Shown here: positions 5,208-21,783 of the stretch, one piece after another
Numbering within the stretch: the first letter of the stretch is position 1
Layout: every line of letters starts with the position of its first letter
IMG/VR virus record: IMGVR_UViG_3300047554_000128
Location: 1 to 21,783 of that record
Origin: a virus
Direction: 5' to 3' (one strand)
Length of the DNA stretch: 21,783 bases
Program-made: the position numbers and the translations under genes
The notes under the pieces: generated by a model
Database searches by the model: none
Seen by the model: the letters and a program-made list of their open reading frames with translations, nothing else
Told to the model about the DNA's origin: nothing

Positions 5208-5888
5208 TTAAAAATACCAATGAAATTGGATTTCTCCTACAGCACCAGAGCCTCCCGCAAACGTGCCTGTGGACCCCCCGCTGCCGCCCATCCCCGGTGT
5301 AAACCCCTCATTACCTGCTCCTGATACTGTTGCTGTATTTGTTTCTCCATAAGTAGGGGAGGCTCCTCCTTCTCCTCCAGTACTACCTATTCCTATAACA
5401 CCTGTTGATCCCGCCAAGCGTCCGTTTTGGGCGGACCCTAAAGTTACTTTCCCCGTACCTGCAGCACCACCTGTACCTGCAGCACCACCTGTACCTGCAG
5501 CACCACCTCCGTTACCTCCCCCGCCCCCTCCGGTAGTAGTAATAGTTCCTGTGGTAGCACCTCCCAGTGTTAAAGATGTAATACTAGTAGCACCTCCTGC
5601 AGTACCGTTGGCACCGGAAGCACCTCCCGGCCCACCATTACCAACTGAAAATGTTATTGTTTTGCCCCAGTCATCAGAACGAATTTGAAAAGATGCGATA
5701 GAAGCCGACCCTCCGCCTCCTCCTGATCCTGCTGTTCCAACACTGTCTCCCCCTCCGCCTCCTCCTCCCGCCTGTGTAACAATAGTTAAATAACTTGCAC
5801 CATACGGAACAAAAATACTTCCACCTGCTCTATATTTTTCAACACGCGGTCCTCGCAGTCTGCGAGGGTCTTGGTGGGGTCTAGGCAT
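5208..5888 (-). CDS. Glycine-rich tail protein, possible adhesin
   Basis: 226 residues, extremely rich in glycine. Residues 1-36 are basic and end in a strand IFVPYGASYLTIVTQAG that leads into runs of seven and five glycines; then short strands alternate with GG/GA/GT-rich segments up to a final GAVGEIQFHWYF strand. The plan (short strand, x-VP-x-G-x-x-x-[IL]-x-[IV], poly-Gly, final [IV]xFxWY strand) matches the glycine-rich domain found in phage tail proteins. Glycine-rich adhesins such as that of Salmonella phage S16 pack polyglycine-II helices at a fibre tip; a similar structure here is inference. The gene holds an exact in-frame 18-bp triplication (5455-5508). It lies between the 1194-residue protein and the SU10-type adaptor and may act as an adhesin or fibre tip. 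Confidence 0.7.
   Translation of the reverse strand: MPRPHQDPRRLRGPRVEKYRAGGSIFVPYGASYLTIVTQAGGGGGGGDSVGTAGSGGGGGSASIASFQIRSDDWGKTITFSVGNGGPGGASGANGTAGGATSITSLTLGGATTGTITTTGGGGGGNGGGAAGTGGAAGTGGAAGTGKVTLGSAQNGRLAGSTGVIGIGSTGGEGGASPTYGETNTATVSGAGNEGFTPGMGGSGGSTGTFAGGSGAVGEIQFHWYF
5455..5508 (-). repeat. Exact 18-bp tandem repeat, three copies, in frame
   Basis: Three adjacent identical 18-bp units (plus-strand unit GTACCTGCAGCACCACCT) encode three copies of the hexapeptide GGAAGT in the glycine-rich protein. The copies are identical in DNA, so the expansion looks recent, and the length (a multiple of three) lets copy number change without a frameshift. Confidence 0.95.
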
Positions 5889-5893
5889 TACCG

Positions 5894-8800
5894 TTATCCA
5901 TTAAAGCCTTCAATCTGTACGGTAAAGATTTCACCACTGATTGGAGTAAACGCAATACGTGTTTCTAGAAGTCCTTGGATGGACACTTGTGCAGCACTAA
6001 GGTCTACAATCATTTCGCCTGTACGCGCGGGTGCACCCCAGTAAACCTGAGTAGACACTGCACCACTGGTGCGAAGACCGGGGGCGCAAGCGATGGCTAC
6101 AAGATCAATATACCCCATCCAGTTACTTACTGGAGATGCGTTAAAGGCTGCGTTATCTCCACCTGCAACAGATACGCGTGTTGCTGTGTTAAACAAGTGG
6201 AGACGAATAGCACCTGTAATGTTATGCTGTCCTGTAGCAAGCGTACCACCTGTACGATACATACGGGCACCACGAATATAGGCTACTTGCCCCGGTCCTT
6301 TTGCAATACGAAACTTTAGTGGTTTAACTGATCCTGCTGTTGTGCTGTTGGCAATTAAATCACCTGCGTTACCCGGAGCAGCCGTAGCACCTGCGGCGTA
6401 AGCAGTCGTATCAGCAGGACGTGTAAACACATCTTGAGACATAAATGTACGTGTAGTGATATACGTAACGCCAGAGACATTGGTTTTAATAGTCCTTGCA
6501 TTCCCGCTTGGATCTTTACCTGCAATTTGAACAGCCTGTGTACTTACTGCACCTCCAACGGACACCATAGGTGTGCCACCACCAGACGCACCGCCGGGAG
6601 CAGTGTTGGATACGTGGACAACCAATGCACCACCAGTAGTCGTTAGAAGCGTTCTGGCATTGGTTCCATCTGTACCTACTACCTGCACACCTTGCGTACT
6701 TACAGGACCTCCTACAGACACAAGCTGCGTAGATCCTCCTGAAGAACCGCCCGGTGCAGTATTTGATACGTGAACTACCAACGCACCTCCCGTTGTAGTT
6801 AGTAATCTACGAGAGTTTGTACCATCGGAACCCAACATGGGGTATCCTTCTGTAGTTACGGCGGCACCTACTGTTGCCGTCATACTGGAACCACTGACTG
6901 CCAAGTTTCCTTCAATAGATACTTTGACAATGGAATTAACACTCGTCAACGCACCTATATTCCAAGTGCCGGATTGTGTAGCTGCTACAAGACCTGCGAC
7001 CGAAACCTTGTCATTTACAGATACCGTCCAAGCACCCGATTGTGTAACTGCATGTGTAGCTACGTTAATTGTGTTGGCTACACTCACAGGAATATTCAAT
7101 CCATTTGGACTGATGGATACCGCACCAACTAGATTTGTACCTGCGTTTAATCCTACATTCCAAGTGCCGGATTGTGTTACCGCAGGTGTTCCTGCCACTG
7201 ATACCGCGATGTTATTAGTATTTTCAACAGATACCGCTACTCTTGAGTTAATACTAGTAAGCGCTGCAATATTCCAAGTACCTGACTGAGTTACAGCGTG
7301 AGTACCGACTGTGATGGTGTTTGCGACGGATACAGGAATATTTAATCCGTTCGGACTGACAGATACATCGGCTATGTTGGCGATGGAAACTGCACCAATA
7401 ATATTTCCACGAACGGAAACTGCACCGATAAGGTTTGTACCTGCGTTTATTCCTACGTTCCAAGTACCGCTTTGAGATACCGCGGGGGTGCCCGCTATGG
7501 ATACAGGTACGTTAAAAGTAGGTGGTGCTAGGGATACAGCAATATTGTTTGTATTCTCTACACTAACGGCAACTCTAGAGTTAATGCTGGTTAAAGCAGC
7601 GATGTTCCAAGTACCCGATTGTGTTACTGCGTGCGTACCAACTGTAATTGTATTAGCAACTGATACAGGTATATTTAATCCATTTGGACTAATAGATACT
7701 CCCACCAGATGAGCAACAGAAGAAATAACCGTTCTTCCACCTGTATCTGTCAAGAATGTACGCGCATCTCCTGCACCGTCTGCACCAACTACTTGAACAC
7801 CTTGAGTGCTAACTGCGCCTGCAACCGATACAAGTTGAGTTGAGCCTGCCGCAGCTCCACCCGGCGCTGTATTGGATACGTGGACAACAAGTGCGCCACC
7901 TGTGGTTGTTAATAGTCTTCGCGCATTGGTTCCGTCAGAACCTAGCATCGGATAGCCTTCGGAGGTAACCGCCGCACCAACTGTTTGCGTCATGCTGGAA
8001 CCACTAACAGCCAAAGACCCTTCGATAGACACACGTGCAATACCACTAGCGTCAATGTAAGGTGTTCTCGCATTACCGGAACCATCGCGTCCTACAATCT
8101 GAACACCTTGTACAGATACAGGACCACCTACGGATACAAGCTGCGTACCGACACCAGAAATTGAAAGTCCTTCTACAGAAACTTTGCCTAGATGGTTAGT
8201 ACCTGCAGGCAGAGGTCCTGTAATTGAAACCGTACCTACGACAGCCAGACCAACACTGGTGCCCGTCATGCGATCCCAAGTATTAGATGCCCTGTTAAAT
8301 ACGTACCCTGCAGTTATTGAAATGCTGTGATTAAATCCTTGTAGAACTTTTGCATCTGTATCAGGAACTACAGTATTGGCGTCCCAAACAGACACAATAC
8401 CCGCAACCGAAGCTGCAGGACGTGCATTACTTACGTGTACAACAAGAGAACCATCAGTGTGGGTTTTTAAAACTCTGCTATTTGTACCGTCCGAACCGCC
8501 GACAGGCAGCATTCGTCCTGTAAATGCTGTTCCTGTAGATGTGTTAGGTTGTATGAAAACACCTGCACTGGTTCCTGTCAAACGGTCCCAAGTACTGGAG
8601 TTAGGGTTTAAAACTTCATTTCTTGTTATAAATGTGTAAGCACTAAAAGAATTGCTTGCTCCGTCTGCAGGAGAGCTTTCGAAATTATTGGCGGCGGCAT
8701 TTGAATAAAGAGTTACACCAAGATTGCCTCTTGCGTCTAACTGCATTACAGAAACATCACCTGAAGCTAATGTAGGACGTGAGCTGTTGTATTGTGCTTT

Positions 8801-9478
8801 CGATAAAGTAGCGATGCCTGTTCCTACACCGCCAACCGAAACTCCGATATTATCGGTATTTTGAATAACTACATTCTGACCTACCGATGTTCCTGTAACG
8901 CGATCCCAAGTGCCGGATGCTGCATTGTAGACCTTGCCCTGTGATTGAACAAAAAGACCTACTTGAACAAATTGTCCGTCGTTATTTGTACCTGTAATAG
9001 CGCCTTGAAGTGAAACCAACACAGGTAACGAATTAGCAATTGACACGGGCACATTAAATGTTGGTGGCGCTAGGGAAACCGCAATATTATTGGTGTTTTC
9101 AACACTTACAGCTACACGCGAGTTAATACTTGTAATAGCCCATGTACCGCTCTGTGTTACGGCATGAGTGCCAACGGTAATAGTGCCTGCAATTGAGACG
9201 GGGATATTTAACCCATTGGGACTTACGGATACATCAGAAATACCACGAACAGAAACACCACCAATAAGATTCGTACCTGCAGGCAACGCATCACGCTGGG
9301 CAACTACTAGTGCACCCATACCAGAAGCCACCGCCTGCCCACCCGAAACTACCGTAGCAGTATTGTTAGCAATATCCGTTGGAATGCTTTGGTTAAAGTG
9401 TACGCTTGTTGAATCTTCAATTGTGTGAAGAGTAACATTCGCGTTATTGCCATCTTTGATAAGAATATTGTTAGACAT
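5894..9478 (-). CDS. Giant repeat-built tail protein (1194 residues)
   Basis: 1194 residues, Val/Ser/Thr/Gly/Asn-rich, beta-repeat rich. The N-terminal 80 residues look like an attachment segment. Repeats seen: QSG[TA]W at residues 109, 620, 669, 731, 769, 813 and 835; SPNGLNIPVS at 86, 597, 708 and 790; NSRVAVSVENTNNIAVS at 119, 633 and 744; TWDRxTGTS near 190, 296 and 400; LVVHVSN at 345, 530, 900 and 952. The last 140 residues are different: a conserved-looking domain with LKFRIAKGPGQVAYIRGARM, IRLHLFNTAT, a GDNAAF segment and MGYIDL, a C-terminal module I have seen in phage virion proteins. No enzyme motif is seen. A long virion-exposed beta-repeat structure or tail appendage is likely. 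It starts six bases after the paralogue pair ends and is followed by the glycine-rich gene. AAGGGA lies upstream of the ATG. Confidence 0.8.
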   Translation of the reverse strand: MSNNILIKDGNNANVTLHTIEDSTSVHFNQSIPTDIANNTATVVSGGQAVASGMGALVVAQRDALPAGTNLIGGVSVRGISDVSVSPNGLNIPVSIAGTITVGTHAVTQSGTWAITSINSRVAVSVENTNNIAVSLAPPTFNVPVSIANSLPVLVSLQGAITGTNNDGQFVQVGLFVQSQGKVYNAASGTWDRVTGTSVGQNVVIQNTDNIGVSVGGVGTGIATLSKAQYNSSRPTLASGDVSVMQLDARGNLGVTLYSNAAANNFESSPADGASNSFSAYTFITRNEVLNPNSSTWDRLTGTSAGVFIQPNTSTGTAFTGRMLPVGGSDGTNSRVLKTHTDGSLVVHVSNARPAASVAGIVSVWDANTVVPDTDAKVLQGFNHSISITAGYVFNRASNTWDRMTGTSVGLAVVGTVSITGPLPAGTNHLGKVSVEGLSISGVGTQLVSVGGPVSVQGVQIVGRDGSGNARTPYIDASGIARVSIEGSLAVSGSSMTQTVGAAVTSEGYPMLGSDGTNARRLLTTTGGALVVHVSNTAPGGAAAGSTQLVSVAGAVSTQGVQVVGADGAGDARTFLTDTGGRTVISSVAHLVGVSISPNGLNIPVSVANTITVGTHAVTQSGTWNIAALTSINSRVAVSVENTNNIAVSLAPPTFNVPVSIAGTPAVSQSGTWNVGINAGTNLIGAVSVRGNIIGAVSIANIADVSVSPNGLNIPVSVANTITVGTHAVTQSGTWNIAALTSINSRVAVSVENTNNIAVSVAGTPAVTQSGTWNVGLNAGTNLVGAVSISPNGLNIPVSVANTINVATHAVTQSGAWTVSVNDKVSVAGLVAATQSGTWNIGALTSVNSIVKVSIEGNLAVSGSSMTATVGAAVTTEGYPMLGSDGTNSRRLLTTTGGALVVHVSNTAPGGSSGGSTQLVSVGGPVSTQGVQVVGTDGTNARTLLTTTGGALVVHVSNTAPGGASGGGTPMVSVGGAVSTQAVQIAGKDPSGNARTIKTNVSGVTYITTRTFMSQDVFTRPADTTAYAAGATAAPGNAGDLIANSTTAGSVKPLKFRIAKGPGQVAYIRGARMYRTGGTLATGQHNITGAIRLHLFNTATRVSVAGGDNAAFNASPVSNWMGYIDLVAIACAPGLRTSGAVSTQVYWGAPARTGEMIVDLSAAQVSIQGLLETRIAFTPISGEIFTVQIEGFNG
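6659..6913 (-). repeat. Coding repeat block 1b of the 1194-residue protein
   Basis: Residues 856-940, the second copy of a block of about 85 residues also found at residues 486-570 (7769-8023). Both contain AVSGSSMT, EGYPMLGSDGTN, RRLLTTTGGALVVHVSNTAP and STQGVQVVG. By eye about ten residues differ, while the DNA differs at many silent positions. Confidence 0.85.
7199..7357 (-). repeat. Coding repeat block 2b (53 residues)
   Basis: Residues 708-760, from SPNGLNIPVS to NNIAVS. The amino-acid sequence is identical to residues 597-649 (7532-7690), but 35 of the 53 codons differ by my hand comparison, all synonymously. Confidence 0.9.
7532..7690 (-). repeat. Coding repeat block 2a (53 residues)
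   Basis: Residues 597-649, the partner of 7199-7357. Protein is identical over all 53 positions. Shared codons are few; no stretch of identical DNA is longer than about a dozen bases. Confidence 0.9.
7769..8023 (-). repeat. Coding repeat block 1a of the 1194-residue protein
   Basis: Residues 486-570, the partner of 6659-6913, spanning IEGSLAVSGSSMT through STQGVQVVGADG. The two blocks are about 370 residues apart and bracket the QSGTW repeat zone, which suggests a larger modular duplication. Confidence 0.85.
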
Positions 9479-11001: not shown

Positions 11002-11691
11002 TTACGCCTCTTCCTGTGTCAAAGCTGTTGTTAAGGTCGGGCCTACGTAAGGAGGTAATTGTGTACCTTGAGAAAGCATTGCACCCCAAATATACAATCC
11101 TGAAGTATTATCACCTGTATAAGACACAGCATCGGATGCATTCACAAGTAAAACTCGCATGGAGCCGATGGTTCTACTATTATTCATGGTTGCACAAACA
11201 CCCACTCGAAGAAATCCATTTGGGTAGGCTGTAATGGATGTTGCAACAAGTGCACCTGCTCCACTAGGACTGGTGCTTATTAATTGCCTTGTAGAAAGAT
11301 TAAAAAGAGCCAAACACCCGTCTGTACCAGATGAATCTATGAAGAATACGCCGATCTTGGTTCTTGTATCAGGCTTTGCGAAAATAGAGGCAAAATATGG
11401 AGTTGAGGCGGAAAGTCCGCTGACATTTCCAGATACAATTCTATGTTGTCCAAGAGTTGTATCCTCAATTATCTGTTCTGCTGTCGCAGCTCCGGTTATA
11501 GGGTTTGCCGTTGCATTTAAAACAGATCCTGCGCCAAACGCACGAATATTCACCAGTGACCAAGTGGTTTGAAATGTTTCACTCTGCAATATTAAATTCG
11601 TAGAGAAGCGCCCACTGGAATTTCTAGCAGTGACTCCGTGACTAACACGTGGCGGTATGATGCGTTGAACAACAGGAATAATTGCAGGCAT
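11002..11691 (-). CDS. Virion protein with carbohydrate-binding-like module
   Basis: 229 residues. After about 30 residues, the protein reads NLILQSETFQTTWSLVNI, ...ITGAATAEQIIEDTTLGQHR, ...STPYFASIFAKPDTRTKIGV, FFID, LFNLSTRQLIS, ITAYPNGFLRVGVC, YTGDNTSGLYIWGAMLSQGT. This is the pattern of the jelly-roll module common in phage 'head spike fibre' type proteins (NLLxxSExFxxxxW...; Yx.S.FxK; FNLxTGxx; GNGWYRV; YIWGAQLExG). Such modules are related in shape to carbohydrate-binding domains and could bind host glycans; here that is inference. The N-terminal residues (PAIIPVVQRIIPPRV) are Pro/Ile-rich and could anchor the protein in the particle. The gene is flanked by virion genes with gaps of five and three bases. 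Confidence 0.7.
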   Translation of the reverse strand: MPAIIPVVQRIIPPRVSHGVTARNSSGRFSTNLILQSETFQTTWSLVNIRAFGAGSVLNATANPITGAATAEQIIEDTTLGQHRIVSGNVSGLSASTPYFASIFAKPDTRTKIGVFFIDSSGTDGCLALFNLSTRQLISTSPSGAGALVATSITAYPNGFLRVGVCATMNNSRTIGSMRVLLVNASDAVSYTGDNTSGLYIWGAMLSQGTQLPPYVGPTLTTALTQEEA

Positions 11692-21529: not shown

Positions 21530-21783
21530 CAAATTTTCCCATACTAAGATATTACTAAGATATTACTAGGATATTACTAGGATATACCTAGGATCTTAAA
21601 AACAGAAGATAAACATAAAATAAAATATCCTAGGATCTTAGGAGTTTATTAGGATCTTAGTAATTACTAGGATACTCCTAGGATAAATACAGATTAAGAC
21701 AATAAACAATAAACTGTTAATTTATTTACTAGTGTTACTTAGATAATACTTATATAACACTATTGATAAGACAATTAAAAGAT
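21530..21783. other. AT-rich non-coding leader with 11-bp repeat array
   Basis: No gene is seen here to the right edge. The bases 21542-21596 hold five direct tandem units of TACTA[AG]GATAT-type (the last is ACCTAGGATCT). Four more units of the same type lie at 21628-21638, 21647-21657, 21665-21675 and 21676-21686, and inverted versions (TCCTAAGATCC, TACTAAGATCC) at 21633-21643 and 21652-21662. Perfect palindrome ATCCTAGGAT at 21627-21636. The rest of the region is plain A/T-rich sequence with no strong promoter pair that I can defend. Possible uses: packaging start site, replication-origin iterons, or operators of the terminase transcript. Confidence 0.7.
21542..21596. repeat. Five-unit 11-bp tandem array 12 bases before terL
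   Basis: Units: 21542-21552, 21553-21563 (both TACTAAGATAT), 21564-21574, 21575-21585 (both TACTAGGATAT) and 21586-21596 (ACCTAGGATCT). The period is close to one turn of the DNA helix, so a protein would bind every copy on the same face, which is the layout of iteron-type or packaging-site arrays. Confidence 0.9.

Follow-up and report, generated by a model that had tools for sequence, protein, structure and literature searches.

Identical protein repeats with randomised codons in a fibre-like tail gene

Two 53-residue repeats within a 1194-residue, fibre-like phage tail protein are identical in every residue, and their codons are randomised relative to one another rather than selected to avoid matching, a state of complete synonymous saturation. 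The gene lies in a 21.8-kb virus record (IMG/VR IMGVR_UViG_3300047554_000128, referred to as the window), probably a metagenome contig, in which the recognisable genes are all on the minus strand and run in the order terminase large subunit, portal, major capsid protein and tail module. The 1194-residue protein belongs to no Pfam family and to no confident PHROG family, with a short, weak match to phrog_6064 (function unknown) being the only PHROG match. It was considered fibre-like from its location in the tail gene cluster, its conserved N- and C-terminal parts and its repetitive middle. The reading frame is uninterrupted across all 1194 codons and contains at least two module types, each present in several copies (Table 1). 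The constraint on the protein presumably comes from the fold or the assembly of a fibre, although structure models of the repeat region and the C-terminal region stayed at a pLDDT of about 28–30.

Table 1. Coordinates of the repeat-bearing gene, its conserved ends and its repeat modules within the window.
Feature	Residues	Position	Strand	Remark
Repeat-bearing, fibre-like tail-module gene	1–1194	5894..9478	-	1194 aa; among head-tail/tail module genes
Conserved N-terminal region	1–81	9236..9478	-	84–94% identical in L006 and L007
Third copy (N-terminal), second half of the A/B module	116–148	9035..9133	-	33/33 aa identical to residues 630–662
Second module type, copy 1	486–570	7769..8023	-	73/85 aa identical to residues 856–940
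Repeat copy A	597–649	7532..7690	-	53/53 aa identical to copy B
Partner of residues 116–148, overlapping copy A	630–662	7493..7591	-	
Repeat copy B	708–760	7199..7357	-	53/53 aa identical to copy A
Partial copy	787–804	7067..7120	-	18 aa identical to residues 594–611, 9 codons shared
Second module type, copy 2	856–940	6659..6913	-	73/85 aa identical to residues 486–570
Second module type, partial copy 3	944–964	6587..6649	-	21 aa identical to residues 522–542
Conserved single-copy C-terminal region	1001–1194	5897..6478	-	87–94% identical in L006 and L007

The identity of copies A and B was located exactly, in both residues and coordinates, by the original prediction, as was the count of differing codons. 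Only 18 of the 53 codons are the same and the remaining 35 all differ synonymously, with 34 of the 37 base differences at third positions, again as anticipated, giving a nucleotide identity of 77%. The third copy, which lies towards the N terminus and spans the second half of this module, shares 9 of 33 codons with its partner. The second module type had been put forward as a further pair of the same kind; copies 1 and 2 do share few codons (22), but their residues are not identical. Its partial copy 3 shares 7 codons with residues 522–542. Further shared blocks within the gene span 33, 22, 21, 20 and 18 residues. A chance origin of the protein repeat is ruled out by its length.

Two other features of the tail module and its surroundings were recorded. 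The tail-type gene at 11002–11691, unlike its conserved neighbours, varies even between relatives whose capsid proteins are alike; the homologous stretch in L010, L012 and L014 is only 32–37% identical and lies in much longer frames (647–825 codons), and L006 and L007 yielded no match to this gene. Just upstream of the terminase gene, an 11-bp tandem repeat (21542–21598; consensus TACTAGGATAT) extends over 5.2 copies with 86% matches.

Codon sharing between repeat copies lies at the level of chance

When codons were drawn independently according to the codon use of the gene itself, 20.3 ± 3.3 shared codons were expected for copies A and B, compared with the 18 observed (P(≤18) = 0.29), and with codon frequencies taken from the other genes the expectation was 18.9 ± 3.3. 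The longest run of identical bases between the two copies is 11 (about 13 expected), and the longest exact direct repeat anywhere in the gene is 21 bp, compared with 17.7 ± 3.2 after permuting codons among synonymous positions. The 12 blocks of at least 12 residues in the gene together hold 258 codons, of which 90 are shared (z = −0.5). Taken at its upper 95% limit, the residual similarity of copies A and B still implies about two or more synonymous changes per codon. Because both the shared codons and the longest exact matches sit at the random level, the scrambling reflects saturation and not avoidance.

The proposal that the DNA had been selected to differ, so as to stop recombination between copies, was therefore not supported by independent codon draws or by codon permutation, and it sits poorly with the exact patches of 20–63 nt that relatives keep inside such repeats. 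The original prediction had tied this proposal to a codon distance beyond that of unrelated genes; against independent codon choice the distance was at chance, close to the level at which the proposal falls. Natural scrambling directed against recombination would be recognised by codon sharing and exact-match lengths below random, and in the 1194-residue gene neither is below random. The same held in a survey of 21 repeat-bearing frames, none of which shared significantly fewer codons than random (lowest z −0.7), while several frames lay far above.

The glycine-rich tail gene adjoining the fibre gene carries an exact 18-bp tandem repeat (5455–5508, three copies, 100%), as had been reported, which is likely a young repeat of the slippage type. 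It had been held up as a contrast to the fibre gene; it shows only that a short tandem repeat is young.

Codon distances to related phages suggest duplications no later than their split

Only two relatives of the gene were present in the searched viral contigs, L006 (IMGVR_UViG_3300049489_000013) and L007, with queries from the N-terminal region, the C-terminal region and the repeat modules in agreement. No relative was found among 50,697 phage records, and a genome search with the gene returned one weak match, in a Coriobacteriia MAG contig. The other genes of L006 and L007 are 49–91% identical in amino acids to those of the window and share 0.36–0.61 of codons at identical residues; for the capsid protein the figures are 90–91% identity and 0.51–0.56. 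Given that orthologues share so few codons, synonymous sites are near saturation genome-wide in this lineage, with structural proteins staying conserved. Within the repeat-bearing gene, identical residues shared by the window and L006 form runs as long as 70 (0.47 of codons shared), 55 (0.53) and 47 (0.62), so that the 53-residue identity of copies A and B is unexceptional. The pairing of conserved residues with scrambled codons, in orthologous genes and in blocks shared across phages, bears out the part of the original prediction that had invoked an old duplication.

Copies within one genome are no closer in DNA than those of different phages. For 40-residue segments with a paralogue, mean amino acid identity was 0.84 to the best paralogue and 0.79 to the best match in other phages, with 0.34 and 0.35 of codons shared, respectively, which is the opposite of homogenisation. 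Both relatives carry modules as in the window, in other orders and numbers, and have scrambled repeats of their own (45 identical residues with 0.31 shared codons in L006; 50 with 0.42 and 41 with 0.41 in L007). Of the two properties that had been singled out for comparison among related phages, the divergence of codons therefore recurs, whereas the number of blocks, like their order, does not.

On a codon similarity scale (S) on which 0 is random and 1 is identical codons, the single-copy parts of the gene gave S = 0.23 and 0.31 between phages and the repeat parts 0.09 and −0.04, while the repeat copies of the window itself lie at about 0. The single-copy parts thus remain more similar between phages than the copies are within the window, which dates the duplications to the split or earlier and gives the synonymous sites of the copies an age equal to or greater than it, in line with the strong constraint since an old duplication that had been proposed. 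Because the full 53-residue unit is absent from both L006 and L007, this dating is drawn from codon distance rather than from a shared arrangement. At aligned, identical residues codon similarity is lower in repeats than in single-copy parts (p = 0.012 for L006; p = 3e-7 for L007), a contrast to which the well-conserved C-terminal region contributes part, and in the comparison of L006 with L007 the difference was not significant. The simple reading is that the modules have been shuffled and the aligned ones are not true orthologues; a raised synonymous rate in repeats could also account for the difference.

Short exact patches can exist within these genes, as shown by L006, where a 40-residue identical repeat contains an exact 44-nt patch (residues about 195–209 and 604–618) with sharp borders and scrambled codons on both sides (random longest run 15 ± 3.5). 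This patch is likely a recent short recombination or gene-conversion tract. A 31-nt identical patch also links the window at residue 807 to L006 at residue 596.

Repetitive tail genes of other phages span a continuum

Identical repeats with scrambled codons also occur in more distant relatives, whose capsid proteins are about 60% identical, and there in different repetitive tail-type proteins: 45 residues with 0.47 shared codons in L072, 58 with 0.50 in L081 and 23 with 0.26 in L031. Pooled over L081, 0.52 of codons are shared and 0.52 are expected. Younger repeats share about 0.9 of codons in L065 and L038 and 0.6–0.8 in L101, and in the temperate Ruminococcus phage phiRM10 (L106) the repeat contains 203 identical nt. 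The genes of L072, L081, L101 and L106 resemble that of the window in that each encodes long protein repeats with identical residues; they differ in that L081 is saturated, L101 partly so and L106, not proven to be a fibre gene, identical in DNA. The window repeats sit at the old, saturated end of this continuum.

Exact short-range direct repeats reached at most 63 nt across 93 loci (1.31 Mb), phiRM10 excepted, and exact patches of 41–63 nt persist in several fibre genes. The loci are mostly contigs assembled from metagenomes, and assembly of short reads, which breaks or collapses exact repeats beyond the k-mer, yields the same ceiling, so that the 63-nt value does not decide for or against a purging of longer identical copies.

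Origin of the repeats

The repeats are most probably explained by a modular tail-appendage gene whose modules predate the split of the phages, in which strong purifying selection has acted on the protein, synonymous sites have saturated and reshuffling continues. A long tail-appendage protein would have been built from a few repeat module types placed between conserved ends, with the modules duplicated before this phage separated from its known relatives. Modules may later have been reshuffled, lost and sometimes overwritten by short recombination tracts, while purifying selection would have preserved the residues and synonymous drift continued until the codon choice of two copies became independent. 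Reshuffling by recombination may have occurred between phages that had already diverged, in which case copies would differ in codons from birth. Copies A and B are a clean yet ordinary case, with differences at the level of chance after long and strong conservation of the protein.

How far age is needed depends on the source of the second copy. Were it acquired by unequal recombination from a diverged phage of the same group, its codons would have differed at the moment of duplication, and any donor in the group would have brought scrambled codons given that these phages approach synonymous saturation at 70–90% protein identity. The differing module order among the three phages and the sharply bordered 44-nt and 31-nt patches suit such an import, but neither of the two gene relatives, nor any of the phage records searched, supplied a donor with matching codons. 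Import is a plausible if somewhat doubtful account, and is a variant of the preferred explanation of ancient, conserved modules rather than its opposite. A filter on the DNA, as distinct from any tuning of it, would also leave only scrambled repeats, if copies were born identical and long identical repeats were then deleted by homologous recombination. The low ceiling on exact repeats across the 93 loci is consistent with this, set beside the residue-identical blocks of the window and of L081, which reach 53 residues (159 nt) and 58 residues (174 nt); the same ceiling is produced by short-read assembly of what are mostly metagenome contigs, and the 41–63 nt patches have persisted, making such survivorship rather unlikely. 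The combined proposal, that identical copies are purged and the long tail-gene repeats of this lineage are kept only in scrambled form, having been built mostly by importing diverged modules, is unlikely to hold. If a filter against identical copies held up in isolate or long-read genomes, it would explain how long fibres arise and are retained in phages despite recombination.

Active selection for codon differences, protecting the gene from internal recombination, would account for the completeness of the scrambling and for the lower codon similarity of repeats than of single-copy parts in two of the three comparisons between phages. Such selection is very improbable given that, here and in the other genes surveyed, codon sharing and the longest exact matches are no lower than random, and that relatives retain exact patches. 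The probable metagenomic origin of the window raises the further concern that versions of one module from two strains were falsely joined as a duplication; with an unbroken frame, multiple copies of each of two or more module types, and similar repeats in two independent contigs from other metagenomes, an assembly artefact is extremely improbable.

Comparison with known repetitive genes

Polyubiquitin is the closest known parallel to the window repeats. The repeats of polyubiquitin genes specify the same protein unit while their synonymous sites have diverged (PMC10457151), and that article sets the birth-and-death evolution of Nei et al. 2000 against the concerted evolution of Sharp and Li. 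In both systems the repeats within a gene are identical in residues and differ at synonymous sites, and the same question is debated, whether purifying selection with birth-and-death or slow concerted evolution is at work. The marks of birth-and-death evolution, namely residue identity with saturation, an absence of homogenisation, and gain and loss of units between relatives, were all found in the window gene. Homogenisation of copies at the DNA level, as concerted evolution entails, was not seen in the fully saturated window, and appears only locally, in the 44-nt patch of L006. The polyubiquitin repeats of one Plasmodium locus usually resemble one another more than they resemble those of other species, whereas the phage codons are fully randomised; unlike polyubiquitin, the phage gene also has several types of module, which have been shuffled and have diverged in part.

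Engineered genes offer a second comparison, in which scrambling or diversifying the codons of repeats stops recombination between them (PMC12365220), an algorithm for this by Tang and Chilkoti being cited in the same source. As in the phage gene, one protein repeat is written in different codons; long DNA matches are thereby removed and recombination blocked. The engineered genes, however, minimise DNA similarity, whereas the phage gene stays at the random level and not below it. No report of natural codon-scrambled phage repeats was found in the literature searched, whose coverage leaves out most subscription papers. The window gene provides a clean natural example of a repetitive protein made from non-repetitive DNA, and shows that saturation and selection for difference can be distinguished when codon sharing is judged against two references, independent draws and orthologous genes.

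A Val-Ser excess in the fibre proteins

Separately from the codon scrambling, the dipeptide Val-Ser is over-represented three- to fourfold in the fibre-like proteins of the window (52 vs 16.7 expected), L006 (55 vs 15) and L007 (44 vs 11). It ranks first among dipeptides when repeated 6-mers are masked (32 vs 10.7, 38 vs 10.3 and 25 vs 6.3, respectively), and holds the same rank in six repetitive fibre proteins from marine relatives, which look different in sequence; the fibre genes with this signature are those of the window, L006, L007, L071, L072, L079, L081, L086 and L087. Val-Thr was below expectation and Ile-Ser about as expected, and most of the control phages (cyanophages, HTVC023P and HTVC027P) lack the signature in their large tail proteins. 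No DNA motif behind Val-Ser, either avoidance of GTNAC or a fixed hexamer, was found, and no O-GlcNAc-transferase-type enzyme (PF13844) was detected in the ten relative contigs searched. The codons used for Val-Ser are scattered, so the signal lies at the protein level, and the excess is a lineage-specific signature. In the marine group Val-Cys is also raised (14 vs 3.1).
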